NCBI GenBank assembly: GCA_012519835.1
Contig: JAAYPJ010000018.1
Coordinates: forward strand, 1-64,000
Reading direction: 5' to 3'
Length of the DNA: 64,000 bases
Source: Clostridiales bacterium
GTDB taxonomy: Bacteria > Bacillota > Clostridia > Peptostreptococcales > Natronincolaceae
Shown: positions 51,285 to 61,890 of the stretch, piece after piece
Layout: each line of letters opens with the position of its first letter
Numbering within the stretch: the first letter of the stretch is position 1
Made by a program: the position numbers and the translations under genes
The notes under the pieces: generated by a model
The model's database searches: none
Seen by the model: the letters and a program-made list of their open reading frames with translations, nothing else
What the model was told of the DNA's origin: nothing

Positions 51285-51983
51285 TTATGTTAGCGGTATG
51301 GGGGTGGTGCTGACCGAATTATCCTTCAAATCCACATACAATGACCCATCCGTGGCCAACGAAGCTAAAAATACGCTGGATATGTTGTTTATTCCCTGTT
51401 CCTTTAGTTTATTTTCTAGCCAGTCACGAGTGAGGTTATTATTTCGCAGATTTTCCGATATTATTTTCCCATTATTGACGATGACAGAGGGAAGGCCTTC
51501 GTATTGAGTTGGAACATTAACATCACCAGGTGTAAGGGGCCTGTGTTGAGACTTTTTGAGTACACTTATCTTGCCATCGATTTCCAACACAGCGAACTCC
51601 ACCTCGCTCAGATTATAAATACCTTTGTTCCTCAAGGCTGCCAGTACTTCGGCAATATTATAGTGCATTTTTGTGATGTTTTTTTCTATTATTTTACCAT
51701 TCTCAATAAAAACCACCGGTTTACCTTCGAGTAACTTACGAGCTGAGCGGCTTTTGATTGCGGTTCTATCGGCCAGTAAATCCAAGGCGATGATTGCCAT
51801 GGGCGCCAGAAGAACTTCCGGATTTTGCTTCGGATCAGCGATATAGCTTGAAAGCAAGCCACCTATCATGTTCACCGTTAAGAAATCGAAATAGTTTAAT
51901 TGTGAAATGGATTTACGCCCGGTGAGACGCAGAAGAACAAGAGCGAGAATAAAAGATTCAATAGAACGTTTCAATGCTGACAA
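51285..51983 (-). CDS. DUF421 (YetF/YcaP) membrane protein
   Basis: DUF421 proteins have N-terminal membrane helices and a cytoplasmic beta-rich domain. Here the first about 80 residues carry the helices, with LVLLRLTGRKSISQL, the family signature. The two-lobed soluble part follows, with KPVVFIENGKI and LPSVIVNNGKI repeats. TTG at 51983 is chosen because GGAAGGAGG lies 6-8 bases upstream. 233 residues. It lies downstream of the repeat-motif protein at 52147 on the same strand. Function unknown. Confidence 0.9.
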   Translation of the reverse strand: MSALKRSIESFILALVLLRLTGRKSISQLNYFDFLTVNMIGGLLSSYIADPKQNPEVLLAPMAIIALDLLADRTAIKSRSARKLLEGKPVVFIENGKIIEKNITKMHYNIAEVLAALRNKGIYNLSEVEFAVLEIDGKISVLKKSQHRPLTPGDVNVPTQYEGLPSVIVNNGKIISENLRNNNLTRDWLENKLKEQGINNISSVFLASLATDGSLYVDLKDNSVSTTPIPLT

Positions 51984-52146
51984 TATAACAACCTCCTTCC
52001 CTCGTTGATCCTGTTTCACCCGTTTTAATATAGGCCCTCAAAAAACATCTCCCTCTTTTCATCCTTTTCCTCCATTCTCGGGTTTGAATTTTATGAAGAT
52101 ACAATGGAAGCTGTAACTGAGATTGACCTCATTTCTTCCGATACTG

Positions 52147-52671
52147 CTACCGTGATTTTCTTGTTGAACTGTTGAAACTTGCCTCAGCAATAAGGTCTTC
52201 GACGTCCTCTTTAGCCCTTGCTATCATGAAACGGGCCTTTTCAATTAGCTCCGCCCCCTCCGATGCGGTGTTTCCGACCACGTTTAGAATTTTTTGTCTA
52301 AAATTGGGCAGGAGCATCCCCAAAAGCGCAACCGTTCCAATTCCATATAAAATCCCATTCCTCTGATCCTTCGTAGGTACATTAATCCATTCTTGTATAG
52401 CCCCTCCGCTGCGATTTCTGACTATCTGGCCGGGATGATGTGTCGCGTATTTCCCTTCTGACAAGGTACCTGTTACATTTTTGATATAGGGGCTCCTACC
52501 TTGTTGGATCCCTTCATGTATTGGTTCGTTGATCTCCTCCTGATAAACATCAAATATCTGATCATATTTTTGACTTGTACGGAGTTCATTTATTATTTCA
52601 TTTTTAATTTCGTCCTTAAGAATTTGCGTAAAAATAGCAATATCATTTTCTGGGGGTTTATTATGATACAA
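52147..52671 (-). CDS. Repeat-motif membrane protein A, paralogue of the protein at 53361
   Basis: The 174-residue protein has an N-terminal helix ILKDEIKNEIINEL, of the (V/I)KxEVLxEL type, and a segment VTGTLSEG. A glycine-rich hydrophobic span (GILYGIGTVALLGMLLP, about residues 104-121) and a helical tail follow. The last two parts align with protein C at 53361 (IAGTLAREG and GFLYGVGGTILFNFLWP). TTG start with AAGGATG upstream. It is divergent from 52882. The span plus tail recalls YtxH/DUF5132-like proteins, unconfirmed. Confidence 0.75.
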   Translation of the reverse strand: MYHNKPPENDIAIFTQILKDEIKNEIINELRTSQKYDQIFDVYQEEINEPIHEGIQQGRSPYIKNVTGTLSEGKYATHHPGQIVRNRSGGAIQEWINVPTKDQRNGILYGIGTVALLGMLLPNFRQKILNVVGNTASEGAELIEKARFMIARAKEDVEDLIAEASFNSSTRKSR

Positions 52672-52881
52672 GATGCTTCATCCTTTCCTGTAGTCCGTGT
52701 TTTTATAAATATTTCGTTTGGTCAAATCCCTCTACTTAGTAATCTACCTTAGTGTAAAAAATTATTCATATCTGCTATAAAAAGTAATAATATTTTTGGT
52801 CACAGATAAACAGTATAAAAATTTTAAGATTTACCATAATAAGCATAGGTAATGTAACTTTTAAATAGAGGAGGCTTTTTA
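52672..52881. promoter_or_regulatory. Divergent promoter region of the accessory cluster
   Basis: The AT-rich gap between two divergent genes must contain promoters for both arms of the cluster. I see no strong -35/-10 pair and no clear operator. A strong GAGGAGG ribosome site precedes 52882. Confidence 0.4.
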
Positions 52882-53337
52882 ATGAAAAATCCTTATACAA
52901 AACAAGCCCTTGCTGAAGATGTTAAAAGGGAAGTACTCGCGGAATTAAACCGGATCAGATTCCAAGAACAAAATTTTATTGACAGTATTAAAAGGGAGGT
53001 GCTTATGGAACTGGGCCAAAATCACCATGGACAATCAGCTTTTTCAAACAGAGATTTAGTTGAAGCAGTTAAAAAAGAGGTCCTGGCCAGTATTCAGGGC
53101 GGGCGACAACAATCTTATGTTTACGGTGGTTCCCATGATTTTAGCAGGGATCAGACTAGTTCCATCGAAGGGGAGGCGTTTACACAAACGAGGGGTGGAA
53201 GGGAAAATCAAGAAGAACCGCATGAGTCTGAACAAGGTGAAATGTCGGAACAGCACTATGGCAGACTTGACCCAAATTTAGTTCAGGCAGTAAAAAATAG
53301 TGTTATAGCCGAGATGAATTTGCATAGCTATAGATGA
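52882..53337 (+). CDS. Repeat-motif protein B, four (V/I)KxEVLxEL helices
   Basis: The 151-residue protein contains four copies of one short helix: DVKREVLAEL (about residues 13-22), SIKREVLMEL (36-45), AVKKEVLASI (62-71) and AVKNSVIAEM (137-146). Between them lies a hydrophilic, Gln/Gly/Glu-rich stretch. No membrane span is seen. The helices are amphipathic and may dock to partners or the membrane surface. Strong GAGGAGG site; protein C follows after 23 bases. No known family recognised. Confidence 0.72.
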   Translation: MKNPYTKQALAEDVKREVLAELNRIRFQEQNFIDSIKREVLMELGQNHHGQSAFSNRDLVEAVKKEVLASIQGGRQQSYVYGGSHDFSRDQTSSIEGEAFTQTRGGRENQEEPHESEQGEMSEQHYGRLDPNLVQAVKNSVIAEMNLHSYR

Positions 53338-53360
53338 TTTATGACAAAGGAGGAATTCTA

Positions 53361-54155
53361 TTGTACTCAAATGAAGGGGCTCTAATCCAAGATGTAAAGA
53401 GGGAAGTACTGGCGGAATTACGGGATGGAGGGAATACCAATGTTCCCCGTCCTATCAGTCATCCTAACAATTCGGATCATATGGTTCAATGGCAAAGGGA
53501 TGACTATGATCCCTTTGCCTCGAACCAAATGTACCAGACTATAAAAGAAAGTGTCAAAAATGAAATTTTAGCTGAAGCTGAAATGCAACAGGCCGATCGT
53601 TTAGCTCAAATGCACGGCGTAGATCGGGCTTTATCGGACCAAAGACTTCAACGAATGATAGACGCTCGTTACCGAACAATTGATAATATGAAGGAAGATA
53701 TAAAAAAGGAACTTCAGACATTCCGTAAAATGGAAGCCCAAAGATCCGGTGATCCCCATGTAAGGGACATAGCCGGTACCCTGGCCAGGGAAGGCCAAAG
53801 ACAAGGACTTTCCCTTGAACAAGTGATTGCAGGATTAGATCAAAAAACCGGCACGGGAACGGGTATAACAGGAAGATTTTCAAACATGATAAACACCGGA
53901 CAGCGGAAGGGTTTTCTATATGGGGTGGGAGGCACCATACTGTTTAATTTCCTTTGGCCCATGATTCAAAACAACATGCGTTCCATTGCGGTGCGTTCCA
54001 TGGAAGAAGGTATGTCTATGGTTGATCGGGCCAAAACTGCTGTAAGTGGCCAAAATCAACAGAACACGTCCACATCCACAGGTTTTGTAAATGTTGATCC
54101 CGGATCTGCATCTCAAGAGAACCAGTTCCAGGATGGAGATAATATGGAACAATGA
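53361..54155 (+). CDS. Repeat-motif membrane protein C
   Basis: TTG at 53361 is the start: AAAGGAGG lies 7 bases upstream and the N-terminus then aligns with protein B. The helix DVKREVLAEL (about residues 11-20) is followed by SVKNEILAEA and DIKKELQTF. Near residue 195 a glycine-rich span GFLYGVGGTILFNFLWP leads to a helix (MEEGMSMVDRAKTAV) like that of protein A. 264 residues. Its stop overlaps the ATPase start (ATGA), so the two are translationally coupled. Confidence 0.75.
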   Translation: MYSNEGALIQDVKREVLAELRDGGNTNVPRPISHPNNSDHMVQWQRDDYDPFASNQMYQTIKESVKNEILAEAEMQQADRLAQMHGVDRALSDQRLQRMIDARYRTIDNMKEDIKKELQTFRKMEAQRSGDPHVRDIAGTLAREGQRQGLSLEQVIAGLDQKTGTGTGITGRFSNMINTGQRKGFLYGVGGTILFNFLWPMIQNNMRSIAVRSMEEGMSMVDRAKTAVSGQNQQNTSTSTGFVNVDPGSASQENQFQDGDNMEQ

Positions 54156-57100
54156 GGGCACCGAATGATATAGATTTTCACTTGATACCGGGGCGGCTGA
54201 GGATAGGTGTTCCAAATTTATTAAATAATCAGGGACTTGCTGATTCGGTGGCCAGCCGCCTCTCACAATACCCCGGGGTTAAGGTAAGCTATGCAAATCC
54301 TGTTACAGGAAGGATTTTGGTTAAATTTGATCACCACAGAACAGATTTAGGGCGTTTATTATCATTAATATTCAGTGCCGATGGCAAAACCCCGCCAAAA
54401 GGCACTGTCCATTTACAGGGTAAAACCGTAGACAGGCGCTCCCCGACGCAACCTGCTGGGGCAAACACACAGGCGTCTCCTAACAGGCCATCGATACCTT
54501 GGCACGTTCTGGACAGTTCAAGGGTCCTTGCACTTACTCAAAGTTCTCTGAAAACAGGTTTATCCCGTCATACAGCGGAGGAACGTTTAAAAATTTTTGG
54601 CCCCAACGAATTAGGGGGGGAATCGGAAAATCCCTTCTGGCGGATTATCACGGAATCCTTAAAAGGTTTTATGACAAAACTCCTGCTGGTTGCGGGAGGT
54701 GTCTCCCTATTAGTCGGGGAAACAACAGATGCGGCGGTTATTGGTGCAATTGTTGTAATACAGGCAGTTGTAGAGGCTGCTCAGGGCTATCGGGCGGAAA
54801 AATCCCTGGATAAATTGAAGCAACTTTCTGACCCGCTTACCACTGTGTTAAGGGGGGGCGAGATTAAAAAAATCGCCAGCAGAGAACTGGTACCGGGAGA
54901 TATTCTCCGTTTGAGCGCCGGGGACATGGTACCTGCAGACGCTAAGATAGCTTCAGCATCAAACTTATTGACTAATGAGGCCTGTCTGACGGGTGAATCA
55001 ATTCCCGTGGCAAAGGACAGCCATATAAAAAGTGATTTTCGGACCCCAATCTCTGATCAATCCAATATGCTTTTTACAGGGACCGGTGTTATAGGGGGCC
55101 AGGTGACAGCCATAGTAGTGAACACCGGAATGCAGACTGAGCTTGGTAGGATTGCTTTGCTCTTAGGGGATGTCAAAAGCGGGAGGACGAATCTTCAGAG
55201 ACAATTAGATTGTCTTGGTAAAAAAATCACCCAATTGGTGGCCGCATCTGTGGGCACAATTGCCATTATTCATCTGTTAAGGGGCCGTTCCATCTGGGAA
55301 GTTCTTCGTACAGGCATCAGCCTTGCAGTTGGTGCTGTGCCCGAAGGATTGCCTGCAGTGTTGACTGTAGCCTTGTCCACCGGAGTGCAAAGAATGGTAA
55401 AGCGTAATGCTATAGTAAGACACCTACCTGCTGTGGAGACCTTAGGTTCTACCACCGTAATCTGTTCGGATAAAACGGGGACTTTAACAAAAAATGAAAT
55501 GACAGTAAAAGAAATGTATGTTGGCAACGCTTGTTTTGAAATTACCGGGGATGGCTATAAACCGGAAGGTGGAATATTTCATAAGGGACAAAACAATCCG
55601 GAAAACGGCAACTTGTTAGTGGAGGAGACCCTAAAAGCGGCATCTTTGTGTAATAATGCGGAGTTAAGACTTAACCCAAGAGGAAAATGGACAGTAATAG
55701 GGGACCCTACGGAGGGAGCCCTTCTTACTGCAGCAGCAAAAGCGGGTTTGTGGTGGCAAGACCTCAAAAACGAATTCCGTCGTCATCGAGAAGTGGCCTT
55801 TGATAGCAAACGTCGCACAATGACGGTAGTATGCCGGGAACCTGAAGGCGGATATGCCGTTTATGTAAAGGGCGCCCCGGATGCGGTGATAAATTATTGT
55901 TCCTCCGTAATCGATGGTACTGAAGAACAACCCTTAGACCCGGAAATTTGCGGCAGGATTTTGGCTGTTAATGACGAAATGGCAAGCAAGGCTCTTCGTG
56001 TTCTGGCAGTAGCCCATAAAAAACTGCCTCCCTCCACGGATTTAAATAAGGTGGATCTGGATTCAGGACTCATCTTTTACGGCTTGATTGGTATGTTAGA
56101 TAGCCCTAGGGAGGGCGTGAGGGAAGCGATTCAGAAATGTTACGCCGCCGGCATTAAAGTTATCATGATCACGGGGGACCATAAAAAGACGGCAGAAGCA
56201 ATTGCCACAAAATTGGGCATCTCCGAGCAGGGAAGGAGTATTACCGGTAAGGAATTGGAACAAATCCCCGATGAAGAGTTTGCAAAGCAAGTGGGAAATA
56301 TTGTTGTTTGTTCCCGAACCACACCTGATCAAAAACTCAGAATTGTCCGTGCCCTGAAAAGTTGCGGACAAATTGTAGCCATGACAGGTGACGGGGTTAA
56401 TGATGCCCCTGCCGTTAAAGAAGCCAATATCGGGATTGCCATGGGAGTTTCGGGGACGGATGTAACAAAAGAGGTTGCTGATATTACATTGAGCGATGAT
56501 AATTTCGTAACCATCGTTAACGGTATTGAAGAGGGAAGAACAGTGAGCACGAATCTATCTAAATCTGTACGCTACATTCTTTCCGGCAGTGTTTGTCAAC
56601 TCATAACAGTATTTACCACTGCGGCGTTAGGATTGCCCACACCCTTGCTGCCTTCACAGATTCTTTGGGTAAACCTTGTTACCGAAAGCCTTCCTGCCAT
56701 GTCACTTTTGGCGGATCCTCCGGAGAAAAATTGTATGGGGCAACCCCCTATTAATGCTGAGGGGAGATTTTTGCCGGACAAAGGGAAAACAATATTACGA
56801 AAGGGCGTACTTTTTGGTCTCAATACCTTCAGCCTTTTCGCTTCCGGTCTAGTCCTGGGGAAATGGTCGTTGAATAAGGCCCGAACCATGGCCTTTTCAC
56901 AAATGGTGGTTAACAGGGTGTTTAATTTGGTAAACGAACAAAAGACAAGAAGTACCAGCGCTCCTGATGTCGGGGGAAATCCACTTACCTTGCCCGCAGT
57001 CGCTGCAACAGTTTCCATGCTTGCAGCCACAATGTATTTACCTTTTATGGGACCCCTGTTTTCTACGGTACCCATAGGCCTAGAAGATTGGGCTCTTCTT

Positions 57101-57229
57101 ATCGCTAATGCTTTTGTAACCGGTAAGGTTGATTTTTTCCTAGGGGCCGGGAGCAAGGAAAACCAAAACTTCAGGGCCATGCCCTTACCCGGCATAAATC
57201 AAGGGTGTCTCCCGAGTGGACAAAATTGA
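54152..57229 (+). CDS. P-type ATPase with N-terminal HMA2-like domain (P2-like)
   Basis: Residues 1-75 resemble HMA2 domains, with LIPGRLRIGVPNL. The P-type ATPase core follows: LTGESIP (actuator), PEGLPAVLTVALSTG (helix 4), CSDKTGTLTKNEMT (phosphorylated Asp) and MTGDGVNDAPAV (hinge). Ten membrane helices are expected. This is the P2A (calcium-ATPase) type, not P1B: no CPC motif. Compared with SERCA, the helix 5, 6 and 8 ion ligands read S and Q (GSVCQ), E (NLVTES) and Q (FSQMV), so the cargo ion may differ. 1025 residues; coupled to protein C. Confidence 0.87.
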   Translation: MRAPNDIDFHLIPGRLRIGVPNLLNNQGLADSVASRLSQYPGVKVSYANPVTGRILVKFDHHRTDLGRLLSLIFSADGKTPPKGTVHLQGKTVDRRSPTQPAGANTQASPNRPSIPWHVLDSSRVLALTQSSLKTGLSRHTAEERLKIFGPNELGGESENPFWRIITESLKGFMTKLLLVAGGVSLLVGETTDAAVIGAIVVIQAVVEAAQGYRAEKSLDKLKQLSDPLTTVLRGGEIKKIASRELVPGDILRLSAGDMVPADAKIASASNLLTNEACLTGESIPVAKDSHIKSDFRTPISDQSNMLFTGTGVIGGQVTAIVVNTGMQTELGRIALLLGDVKSGRTNLQRQLDCLGKKITQLVAASVGTIAIIHLLRGRSIWEVLRTGISLAVGAVPEGLPAVLTVALSTGVQRMVKRNAIVRHLPAVETLGSTTVICSDKTGTLTKNEMTVKEMYVGNACFEITGDGYKPEGGIFHKGQNNPENGNLLVEETLKAASLCNNAELRLNPRGKWTVIGDPTEGALLTAAAKAGLWWQDLKNEFRRHREVAFDSKRRTMTVVCREPEGGYAVYVKGAPDAVINYCSSVIDGTEEQPLDPEICGRILAVNDEMASKALRVLAVAHKKLPPSTDLNKVDLDSGLIFYGLIGMLDSPREGVREAIQKCYAAGIKVIMITGDHKKTAEAIATKLGISEQGRSITGKELEQIPDEEFAKQVGNIVVCSRTTPDQKLRIVRALKSCGQIVAMTGDGVNDAPAVKEANIGIAMGVSGTDVTKEVADITLSDDNFVTIVNGIEEGRTVSTNLSKSVRYILSGSVCQLITVFTTAALGLPTPLLPSQILWVNLVTESLPAMSLLADPPEKNCMGQPPINAEGRFLPDKGKTILRKGVLFGLNTFSLFASGLVLGKWSLNKARTMAFSQMVVNRVFNLVNEQKTRSTSAPDVGGNPLTLPAVAATVSMLAATMYLPFMGPLFSTVPIGLEDWALLIANAFVTGKVDFFLGAGSKENQNFRAMPLPGINQGCLPSGQN

Positions 57230-57253
57230 TAAATATTTGTATTGGAGGGAAAA

Positions 57254-57487
57254 ATGAACCGGGCCACATATAAAAACGTTAAGGGGAAAATGGCCAAGGC
57301 CTTAACCCTTATTAAAGAAGCCCTGGATATAAGTATATCCATGCTCAGAACCAACCAAGAAAATAATATTGCAATGCTTTGGGAGGAATTTATGAGGGAG
57401 ATTATACTTTATATCAGACATAAATCAAGAGAAACAGGGATAAATTTCAGCAACTACATTTCAATGAGAAGAATCTTTTTTAAATAA
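57254..57487 (+). CDS. Small protein of unknown function after the P-type ATPase
   Basis: ATG at 57254 has GGAGGG upstream, 24 bases after the ATPase stop. The 77-residue protein is helical and basic, with IKEALDISISMLRTNQENNIAML and LYIRHKSRETG segments. No membrane span or known motif. It is the last gene before a strong terminator, so it belongs to the cluster transcript. Confidence 0.65.
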   Translation: MNRATYKNVKGKMAKALTLIKEALDISISMLRTNQENNIAMLWEEFMREIILYIRHKSRETGINFSNYISMRRIFFK

Positions 57488-57527: not shown

Positions 57528-57724
57528 AATTCAAATAATTAAAAACCTTCGGGATGGGTATAAATAAATTGCAAACGATAAAGGTTATGTGACAAGAAAG
57601 TATGTTCAATAAAAGAGGATTTTTTGAACTTTGAACGTATTATAATAAGAGGGCATTTAATCAATAATAAAGCATAATATAAACATTATTAAATAGCTAT
57701 AATATAATAGAGAGGTTGGGGCCA

Positions 57725-58729
57725 ATGGATTTGTCTATCAGGAATATTACAGAACAGGCAGAGGAATCTGTACTATCCCCTTTTGCCCAACTTAGTAAAA
57801 ATACCAAGGGAAGAGCAAACCCTGAGCAGGAATGTGATATTCGTACAGCATACCAGAGGGACAGGGACAGGATAATTCATTGTCAATCCTTCAGAAGTTT
57901 AAAGGGAAAGACTCAGGTGTTTATTGTAAATGATTATCTCTTTAGGACGAGGTTGACCCATACATTAGAAGTTAACCAGATTGCCCGTACCGTGGCAAGA
58001 GCACTAAAATTAAACGAGGACCTGACAGAGGCCATAGCCATAGGACACGATCTCGGACATACGTGTTTCGGCCATGTGGGAGAATATGTGCTTAACAAGA
58101 TAAATGGCAGGTTTAAACATAATGAGCAGAGCCTTAGGGTGGTAGATGTTTTAGAACGCGATAGAAGGGGGCTAAATTTGACGTTCGAGGTGAGGGATGG
58201 GATATTAAATCATACAGGACCTGACAAACCTGAAACACTGGAGGGGAAGCTTATAAGGCTGGTGGACCGCATAACTTATTTATGTCATGATGTCCAGGAT
58301 AGTATAAATGCGGGTGTTTTCAAAATGGAGGATTTGCCGCCCATCGTATCGGAAAGATTGGGGAAAAGCCATAGCGAAAGGATTAACACATTTGTGGTTG
58401 ATATGATAAATGTAACAAGAGATAAATTAAAAGATGAAATTGATGTTGACATTTATCAAAGTGAAAAAATTTCGGAAGCAATGAATATTTTGAGGGATTT
58501 CATGTTTAAAAACGTTTACTATGGGAAAGTATGTTCACAGGAGAAAAAGAAGGCGGAATTTATTGTAGAATCCTTATATACTTATTTTATAAATCATCCT
58601 GAAGAGATACCTTTAAAATATTATAACAGCATAAATGGGGAAAGTTTAGAAAGAAGCACAACCGACTTTATTGCGTCGTGTACAGATTCTTATGCTATCC
58701 AACTCTTTCATGACAAATTTATACCTTAA
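57725..58729 (+). CDS. dgt: dGTP triphosphohydrolase-like HD protein
   Basis: Dgt-type HD enzymes cleave dNTPs to nucleosides and tripolyphosphate. HD residues are seen in RLTHTLEV and GHDLGHTCFGHVGE, with GILNHTG later. RTAYQRDRDRIIHCQSFRSL is the family start block. ATG at 57725 with GAGAGG 9 bases upstream gives 334 residues. Order dgt-dnaG-rpoD is common in clostridia. It may be a deoxynucleotidase of wider specificity. Confidence 0.94.
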   Translation: MDLSIRNITEQAEESVLSPFAQLSKNTKGRANPEQECDIRTAYQRDRDRIIHCQSFRSLKGKTQVFIVNDYLFRTRLTHTLEVNQIARTVARALKLNEDLTEAIAIGHDLGHTCFGHVGEYVLNKINGRFKHNEQSLRVVDVLERDRRGLNLTFEVRDGILNHTGPDKPETLEGKLIRLVDRITYLCHDVQDSINAGVFKMEDLPPIVSERLGKSHSERINTFVVDMINVTRDKLKDEIDVDIYQSEKISEAMNILRDFMFKNVYYGKVCSQEKKKAEFIVESLYTYFINHPEEIPLKYYNSINGESLERSTTDFIASCTDSYAIQLFHDKFIP

Positions 58730-58817
58730 TAACAAATATTTAGGCCTGCAAGGTAAATATTTTCAGTTATATTTTTTGGAGTTAAAGAAGGAATTAACAG
58801 TGTTAACGTCGAATGAG

Positions 58818-58834
58818 ATATACCATATGTATAT
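58818..58834. repeat. Short inverted repeat between dgt and dnaG
   Basis: ATATAC and GTATAT flank CATAT (6-5-6). It could be an operator for dnaG-rpoD, but AT-rich palindromes of this size arise by chance. Confidence 0.3.
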
Positions 58835-58939
58835 GTGAAGATGACAGAAACTACGACATTTAACAAATCATGTTGTAATAGAAATAGAGATAAAAAAACA
58901 AGAGGAAACATGGGGTATGGGTATTAATGGGTGATTGTA

Positions 58940-60772
58940 ATGGGAAACTTTCTTTCCGAAGAGTTAATTAATGAAATAAAGGATGCAAATGAAATAATAG
59001 ACGTAATTTCTCAATATATACAAGTTAAAAAGGTGGGTTCTTCTTATAAAGCATTGTGCCCTTTTCATAACGAAAAAACCCCCTCTTTTATTATTAATCA
59101 AGAAAAACAAATCTATAAATGTTTTGGATGCGGTGAAGGTGGGGATGTAATCAGTTTTATTATGAAAATGGAAAATTTGGATTTTATAGAATCTGTTAAA
59201 TTGTTGGCCGGAAGGGCCAATATTGAAATTAATAGAACAGAATCATTGGAAAATATAAAAAGGCGACTCAAAGAAAAGAGCCTCTATTATGAAATCAACA
59301 GAAAAGCGGGGTTATATTTTTATGACAATTTGACTAAGCAGCCCAATCCTGCCCTAAAATATCTATCAGAGAGGGGAATTACTTCCAAAACATTGACAAG
59401 CTTTGGATTAGGTTATTCTATGGACAGCTGGGATAATTTAATGTTATATTTGCAAAAGGAGGGATATAATTTAGACGATATTCAAAAGTGTGGGTTAATA
59501 CGTTCAAACAAATCGGACGGGTATTATGATTATTTCCGTAACAGGATAATGTTTCCGATATTTAATACAAAGGGGGATGTAACAGGATTTGGCGGAAGGG
59601 TAATCGACGACTCCATGCCCAAGTATCTGAATTCACCGGAAACATTAGTGTTTAACAAGAGTAATATACTTTATGGTTTGAATTTTGCTCGTAAAAATAT
59701 CAGAAATGGGCAAATAATATTGGTTGAGGGATATATGGACGTTATAGCCTTGCACCAAGCAGATTTTAAAAATGCTGTGGCTTCCTTAGGTACTTCTTTA
59801 ACCGAGTATCAAGGCCGACTGCTCAAAAAATATTGTGATGAAATTATAATATGTTTTGATGGTGACGAGGCGGGGACAAAAGCAACTATGAGAAACCTGG
59901 ATATATTAAGTAAGGTGGATTGTCGATTCAGGATTATGGTTCTTCCGGATGATAGGGACCCGGACGATTTTATAAAACTTTATGGCAGGGATGAATTTCA
60001 GGAACATATCGACAAATCAATGAGTCTAATAGATTATAAGATATTTTTGACAAAAAACAAATATCCCGGGAATACTATAGAGGATAGAGTCGGACTGGCG
60101 AAAGAGGTATCGAACATTATAAAGGACATAAAAAGTCCGGTAGAAAGGGAAGCCTATATTGAAAAGATTGCAAATGAAACCGGCATTTCAAAGGAATCTA
60201 TCAGGTTGGAGGTATTAGATAAGGTTAAGAGCACATTTGTTTATAAAAACAATCTTAAACGCGGTTCAGATTATAAGAGAAGTAACAATTATATAGAAAT
60301 GGTACCGTTAGCTGAACAAAAGGGCCATATTATTGCAGAAAAACAGCTAATTAAGTTTATGATTACCGATAATAAATTGATAAAACATATATTAAACAAC
60401 GTTTCGGCAGAGGATTTTTCAGTAACGGAACACCAAGAAATAGTGGCATATTTGGCTTCAAATATGGATAACATGAAGGATAAGGAGATAGAAAATCTTT
60501 TTCCGCATTTGGAGGAAAATATTAATAAAATATTATCAACCGATATTGAATATATTGATTTGAATAATACATTGGATAAATATATTGTAAATTTGAAAAA
60601 ATATAAATTACTTTATAATATAAGGATATTGGAGGAAGAACAGCATAATATTGTTAATAGCTCAAATTTAACTGAGGAAGAGGTTGAAAGCAAGTTGTTG
60701 GATATAGGAATAAAAATAATGAAAAAGAATGCACAAATACAGAAGCTAAAAAGCTCGATGAAGGGAGGGTAA
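58940..60772 (+). CDS. dnaG: DNA primase DnaG
   Basis: DnaG makes RNA primers for replication. The N-terminal zinc finger is [11 protein letters not shown]...YKCFGC (about residues 38-62). The TOPRIM domain has [12 protein letters not shown] and [11 protein letters not shown]. The C-terminal helicase-interaction domain is less conserved. ATG at 58940 after GGTGATT gives 610 residues; GTG 58931 is also in frame. rpoD starts 5 bases after the stop. Confidence 0.97.
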
Positions 60773-60777
60773 CAGCA

Positions 60778-61890
60778 TTGAGTAACATAAAGGATGTAAG
60801 AGATATAAAAAAGGAAAATATCAGAAAACTGGTGGAAAAGGGCAAAAAGAAAGGCGAAATCACTTATATAGAAATTATGGATGCTTTAGAAGAAATTGAA
60901 TTGGATAAAGATCAAATAGATGAAATATATGATAATTTTGCTAATATGGGTATAGATATTGTAGGCGGTAAGGAAGATGATAGTGAGGAAGACGATGATG
61001 AAAAAATAGATAAAACAGAAGAAGAGCCTGTTGAGGATGATGCGAACCTGCTAAAAGGGGTTAACGTAGATGATCCGGTTAGAATGTATTTGAAGGAAAT
61101 TGGGAAGGTCGCTTTGCTGACAGCAGAGGAGGAAGTTGATTTAGCAAAAAAAATGACCGAAGGCGACGAACAGGCCAAAAAGAAATTGGTTGAGGCAAAT
61201 CTGAGGTTGGTTGTAAGCATTGCAAAAAGGTATGTGGGCAGGGGAATGTTGTTTTTAGATTTGATACAAGAGGGAAATTTAGGGCTCATTAAAGCCGTAG
61301 AAAAATTTGACTATACAAAAGGATTTAAATTCAGCACCTATGCTACCTGGTGGATACGTCAGGCAATTACGAGGGCAATAGCGGATCAAGCCCGTACAAT
61401 CAGGATTCCGGTCCATATGGTGGAGACAATCAACAAATTGATTCGTGTGTCCAGGCAATTGTTACAGGAGCTGGGAAGGGATCCAAAACCTGAAGAGATA
61501 GCCATAGAGATGGATTTTTCCGAAGAAAAGGTACGTGAAATCCTAAAAATTGCTCAGGAACCTGTTTCCCTTGAAACACCCATTGGTGAAGAAGAAGACA
61601 GCCATTTGGGAGATTTTATCCCTGACGATGATGCGCCGGCACCGGCAGAGGCAGCGGCATTTTCATTACTAAAGGAACAACTGATAGAGGTGTTGGATAC
61701 ACTGACACCCAGGGAGCAGAAAGTACTGAGGTTACGTTTTGGGCTCGACGATGGCAGAGCCAGAACCCTGGAAGAAGTGGGCAAAAAGTTTGAAGTAACA
61801 AGGGAACGGATAAGACAGATTGAGGCTAAAGCATTGAGGAAACTCAGACACCCAAGCAGGAGTAAGAAACTGAAGGATTACTTGGAATAA
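60778..61890 (+). CDS. rpoD: RNA polymerase primary sigma factor RpoD (SigA)
   Basis: RpoD is the housekeeping sigma factor. Region 1.1 is followed by an acidic linker (about residues 55-85), region 1.2 ([17 protein letters not shown]), region 2 ([18 protein letters not shown]), and region 4 with [20 protein letters not shown] start with AAGGGAGGG; 370 residues. Cotranscribed with dnaG. Confidence 0.98.

Follow-up and report, generated by a model that had tools for sequence, protein, structure and literature searches.

We find that an uncultured, anaerobic Clostridiales bacterium (Natronincolaceae; assembly GCA_012519835.1, 1.63 Mb) carries a conserved gene cluster built on a P2-like P-type ATPase, and we propose, with a probability of about one half, that this cluster encodes a scaffolded cation-pump platform that would be PacL-like but would rest on a P2-type pump.

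Layout and recurrence of the gene cluster

All six ORFs described in the initial annotation are present in the ORF list of the window (the whole stretch of DNA that we analysed, 64,000 nucleotides in length) at the coordinates given in Table 1, in the layout A← →B→C→ATPase→77-aa protein. The region separating A and B is probably a divergent promoter region; promoter-like matches within it are near chance level. The ORF of protein C opens at ATG 53334 (ORF 53334–54155), and we consider TTG 53361 the more likely start because AAAGGAGG lies just upstream of it. The stop codon of C and the start codon of the ATPase gene overlap as ATGA (54152–54155), in agreement with the coupling of these genes that had been noted earlier. 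Comparison of the window with a sister genome (same genus; a metagenome assembly of an uncultured ‘Clostridiales bacterium’) gave dN/dS values of 0.07–0.14 for A, B, C and the ATPase (0.14 for A, 0.07 for C), indicating that these are real genes. The sister genome (locus L035) keeps the gene order to the end of its contig, with the 77-aa gene falling beyond that end. We note that dgt-dnaG-rpoD (57716–61890) lies directly downstream of the cluster. A search for metal riboswitches upstream of the cluster found none, either here or at 11 related loci; a match to mir-5697, being under its gathering score, was taken as chance.

Table 1 Features of the cluster and its neighbour in the window.
Feature	Coordinates	Strand	Remarks
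DUF421/YetF protein	51285..52019	-	Pfam DUF421, 139 bits; neighbour, probably outside the system
Protein A	52147..52671	-	174 aa, TTG start; PacL/DUF6110-like scaffold candidate
Intergenic A/B region	52672..52881		Between divergent A and B, from gene order
Protein B	52882..53337	+	151 aa; multivalent linker candidate
Protein C	53361..54155	+	264 aa, TTG start; full-length paralogue of A
P2A-like ATPase	54152..57229	+	1025 aa; HMA_2-like N-terminus
77-aa helical protein (‘WIFK’ family; earlier ‘orphan’)	57254..57487	+	ATG 57254, GGAGG upstream

When 84,980 species genomes were scanned with protein C alone, 10 loci were recovered; every one comes from a metagenome-assembled genome labelled Bacillota, Clostridia or Clostridiales, and several are from the same assemblies as those obtained in a separate genome search. 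A and B are present in all 10 of these loci and a PGRxR ATPase in nine. The ATPase comes directly after C in eight loci, and in a ninth (L113) it sits on the far side of B; at L112 the 77-aa gene follows C, and the short contig holds no ATPase. Among 299 genomes of the phylum, an A-type protein occurs in 22 other genomes, in 21 of which a P-type ATPase is encoded less than 2 kb away. The conserved neighbourhood that the initial annotation had looked to as the mark of a system is therefore present, and the layout recurs in other Bacillota families and classes. Since bacteria that are only distantly related carry the same genes with their order kept, and since the ATPases of these clusters form a branch of their own (see below), the cluster is a genuine and conserved multigene system on a P2-like pump, mostly undescribed. 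Outside the window genus, the DUF421 gene, which had been counted as a member, accompanies the cluster only at loci L038, L039 and L082, and with four lineages to its name was rejected as a component; it is an occasional neighbour, not part of the core.

Related clusters across the phylum differ in the ATPase that they carry: some have P2 pumps, others P1B pumps, giant ATPases or shortened ATPase-like proteins in which DKTGT is missing. PGRxR ATPase-like proteins of ~410–500 aa that lack DKTGT (L040 4911–6419, L041 10761–11993, L042 1713–2951 and L043 3915–5171) adjoin P2 ATPase clusters and are candidate pseudo-ATPase subunits. Among 60 relatives, C occurs only in the sister genome, and window-type clusters are patchy. 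This patchy spread, the position of the window ATPase next to that of a genome of another class (98/95), and the high G+C content of the cluster (44.1% against a window mean of 38.5%, near the top of the window range) together suggest that horizontal transfer of the cluster is likely. A plasmid-borne origin was considered and rejected: matches to the ATPase in PLSDB all begin at query residue 76 or later, with no PGRxR-type relative among them.

Small proteins of the cluster

Protein A consists of an N-terminal motif helix, a Gly-rich hydrophobic span (GILYGIGTVALLGMLLP) and a KEDVEDLIAEA helix, protein C contains two to three motif helices and the Gly-rich span GFLYGVGGTILFNFLWP, and protein B carries ~four copies of a VKREVLAEL-type amphipathic helix. 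The Gly-rich motif of A and C is conserved. The paralogy of A and C noticed by the initial annotation extends over their full length, with a profile–profile comparison (hhalign) giving a probability of 99.6% and an E value of 1.8e-24 over 150 columns (3e-5 with one sequence as query). That A, B and C have a helix motif in common also holds, as the C profile matches A in 10/10 and B in 9/10 of the loci, which were themselves found by C. We further ran profiles built from relatives only, excluding the window and sister sequences, against the 612 ORFs of the window: the profile of an 85–106 aa family returned A as its top match (2.2e-5), that of a 138-aa family returned C (1.4e-5), and that of a 78-aa family returned the 77-aa ORF (7.7e-8).

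The earlier description of the small proteins as membrane proteins fits them in part. By Kyte-Doolittle hydrophobicity A (1.58) and C (1.33) have one borderline span each; for B (0.35) the label is too strong, because it has no hydrophobic span. No Pfam or NCBIfam family was found for B and no relevant Pfam family for window A or C, DUF1490 and DUF6110 going unmatched up to E = 1. Neither A nor C contains Cys, the last 30 residues of A contain no His, and the tail of C has no visible metal-binding motif. The predicted structure of C is of low confidence (mean pLDDT 51.7) and was left out of our reasoning.

The 77-aa protein is not an orphan, as its match to the 78-aa family places it in a conserved family of these clusters. 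The AlphaFold model is a two-helix hairpin (pLDDT 94) for which a fold search gave no PDB match at E ≤ 10, and the family is without a Pfam or NCBIfam name. It is present in many PGRxR-ATPase clusters and, more broadly, was found in 25 of 397 other genomes. In 17 of the 25 its gene adjoins that of an ATPase; in the other eight it does not, and seven of these eight have no HMA_2 protein over cut-off. The initial annotation had held that small proteins occurring mostly apart from the ATPase would speak against a system; A-type proteins do not behave in this way, and the 77-aa family is apart from an ATPase in those eight of 25 genomes, so that the adverse outcome did not come about in full.

The ATPase and its ion site

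The ATPase begins with a Pfam HMA_2 match (residues 10–66; 35.8 bits, cut-off 30) that includes PGRLR at residues 13–17, has no Cys in residues 1–130, and continues with Cation_ATPase_N, E1-E2, Cation_ATPase and Cation_ATPase_C domains (Pfam), in agreement with its initial description as a P2-like pump with an HMA_2-like start. The catalytic motifs TGES, DKTGT and GDGVND are intact. M6 reads VNLVTES, with Glu at the position of SERCA D800, and in M5 the positions of N768 and E771 are Ser and Gln, respectively. At the D800 position the window clade and the related cluster clades carry Glu and most ordinary pumps Asp; giant cluster ATPases of 1528–1548 aa keep the Asp. In trees of the catalytic core, from which most of the N-terminus was left out, a 100/99 branch places cluster-associated ATPases and ordinary pumps on opposite sides, the ordinary side comprising 16–18 pumps, among them the window genome's own two (C30, C82) and proteins annotated as SERCA/PMCA-type. 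A grouping with housekeeping calcium pumps, which the initial annotation had named as a reason to abandon its view, is thus not what the trees give, and the ATPase belongs to a distinct P2A-like subfamily set off from ordinary Ca2+ pumps.

The same features bear on the possibility that the cluster encodes an ordinary-type Ca2+/Mn2+ efflux pump with small regulators acting one-to-one and no higher-order platform, a reading that we consider conceivable though rather unlikely. It would account for the P2A catalytic core, for the best NCBIfam model being that of a PMR1-type Ca ATPase (635 bits, under its cut-off of 798), for the nearest solved structure being the Listeria Ca2+ ATPase LMCA1 (aligned from residue 132 only), and for the one short hydrophobic span each of A and C. 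Like LMCA1 (lmo0841) and the single-site calcium pumps PMR1/SPCA, the window ATPase keeps the M4 Glu and M6 Asn, and its M8 Arg aligns with an Arg of LMCA1; unlike them, it has an extra PGRxR/HMA_2 N-terminus of ~110 residues, Glu in place of the M6 Asp, a clade of its own and an operon with scaffold-like proteins. Against an ordinary pump stand the 100/99 separation, the lack of any small-family match in the short flanking stretches of ordinary pumps that were examined, and the repeats of B together with the A–C paralogy, which speak for a multivalent assembly more than for one-to-one regulation.

Giant PGRxR ATPases of 1528–1636 aa are encoded in like clusters of other Bacillota (L086 3735–8354, L089 3438–8024, L094 10758–15668 and L102 7140–11786), and several of them have a P2-type C-terminal half. 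They resemble, by size alone, the giant ATPases CtpH/CtpI (FUPA24), which have been described as isolated and uncharacterised (PMC10654040); the window ATPase, at 1025 aa, differs in having one catalytic unit.

A PacL-like platform and other readings

PacL proteins (DUF1490) cluster P1B pumps in mycobacteria, as in the PacL-CtpC/CtpG effluxosomes of Mycobacterium tuberculosis, and their published partners are P1B rather than P2 pumps (PMC9374683, PMC13043812). They are reported to self-associate through a GXXG motif in the transmembrane segment and to bind their partner ATPases at the N-terminal domain (PMC13043812). The suggestion of the initial annotation that the cluster represents a new kind of system is accordingly not supported, as PacL-scaffolded ATPase platforms are already published (PMC9374683, PMC13043812). 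The cluster resembles effluxosomes in its small scaffold-like proteins, which have conserved glycines and a span of borderline hydrophobicity, beside a P-type ATPase, in an extra N-terminal domain on that ATPase, in several scaffold paralogues and, in some relatives of A, His-rich tails. It differs in its pump, which is P2A-like rather than P1B by Pfam, NCBIfam and motif, in having two long paralogues, the repeat-helix protein B and the 77-aa hairpin protein, in the lack of a metal-binding tail, and in its host, a member of the Bacillota. To our knowledge, DUF1490 has been described as confined to Actinobacteria. Because a scaffold-like gene lies close to a P-type ATPase gene in the window and in 21/22 other genomes, whereas the P1B partner and the metal-binding tail are missing, the Pfam similarity of relatives stays below cut-off or is indirect and the membrane spans are borderline, we call the cluster PacL-like in design and not a PacL system.

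Relatives of A connect it to these scaffolds. One relative matches DUF5132 (0.00093) and DUF1490/PacL (0.0027) in Pfam, both below cut-off, and the A-family profile, run on whole genomes, retrieves proteins assigned by Pfam to DUF6110 (one clear, two just below cut-off), each adjoining a P1B6-like ATPase; the tie to P1B6 clusters suspected earlier is thus real. In direct profile comparison with DUF6110, window-type A reached a probability of 45%, suggestive at most, and C was negative, so that the link from A to the DUF6110/DUF5132/DUF1490 (PacL) families is transitive. Some relatives of A (at loci L036–L038 among others) end in His-rich tails (FDEHHPEHH), which window A lacks; those at L036 6873–7193 and L037 9206–9472 (HHPEH, HHPEHH) are like the PacL1 metal-binding motif.

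In the platform that we propose, the pump would probably export one divalent cation per cycle, most likely Ca2+ or Mn2+. A and C would be PacL/DUF6110-like membrane-anchored scaffolds whose glycine spans self-associate in the membrane to form patches and whose C-terminal helices may dock on the PGRxR/HMA_2-like N-terminal domain of the pump. B would cross-link A and C into larger patches through its motif helices, and the 77-aa hairpin protein would serve as an accessory subunit of the assembly. Gene conservation and gene order, with A and B in every C locus, the ATPase in nine of ten and related clusters phylum-wide, support this platform, as do the separate ATPase subfamily, the proximity of A-type genes to ATPases, the PacL-linked relatives of A, the His-rich tails of some relatives, and the published behaviour of PacL proteins. 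The reading is weakened by the absence of Pfam matches and the weak spans of A and C, by the DUF6110 comparisons (45% and negative), by the missing tail, by the P1B identity of PacL partners, by the genomes (8/25) in which the 77-aa family has no adjacent ATPase, and by the lack of a metal riboswitch in the loci searched.

FezB is thought to load iron into the ferrosome, and in a ferrosome-like ion store A and C would shape or decorate an internal compartment into which the pump loads a divalent cation. We consider this unlikely. It gains from the tie of the A family to DUF6110 proteins whose neighbouring P1B6-like ATPases begin with a GRxR-type motif, and from three loci near ATPase clusters (L084 18532–19167, L103 730–1365 and L087 8904–9440) at which a ferritin/rubrerythrin-like part stands ahead of a PacL-like stretch or is joined with it, hinting at a possible iron link. 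The window resembles DUF6110-P1B6 pairs and ferrosome (fez) clusters in the GRxR-type N-terminus of its ATPase and in small proteins next to the pump that end in an EEAEDLxxEA-like helix; it differs in lacking the P1B6 hallmarks (SCA in M4, HN in M6) and in adding B and the 77-aa protein. The cluster holds no P1B6 ATPase (FezB), and no Pfam match to the DUF4405-like cytochrome that is FezC in some fez clusters (PMC10979944) was found in A, B, C, the DUF421 protein or the 77-aa protein. The ion site, moreover, is calcium-pump-like, and the ATPase is the only HMA_2 protein over cut-off in the window genome. Somewhat less probable again is an undescribed bacterial membrane compartment or ion store that would be to calcium or manganese what the ferrosome is to iron. 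In it A and C would organise internal or patch membranes, B would cross-link them through its repeated helices and the Glu-site P2 pump would load Ca2+ or Mn2+.

Least probable, in our judgement, is that the small proteins have a membrane- or envelope-related role of their own, to which the ATPase was added in particular lineages. Several genomes do have the 77-aa family, at times together with C-like proteins, while no HMA_2 ATPase reaches the cut-off; in three of them (L127, L131 and L135) its gene lies just after dnaG-rpoD with no ATPase, neighbours that the window cluster shares. Against this reading stand the near-constant pairing of A-type genes with an ATPase, the C–ATPase overlap and the presence of B and window-type C with the ATPase in 9/10 loci (the exception being L112).

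The ion pumps for which PacL-type scaffolding has been described are heavy-metal ATPases of the P1B group. Should it also serve a P2-type pump whose ion site is distinct, pump clustering would be general in bacteria and not a mycobacterial metal-resistance device. The cluster yields two families without Pfam or NCBIfam names, those of B and of the 77-aa protein, and offers a setting in which PGRxR/HMA_2-bearing P2 ATPases can be tested, perhaps with the uncharacterised giant ones among them.
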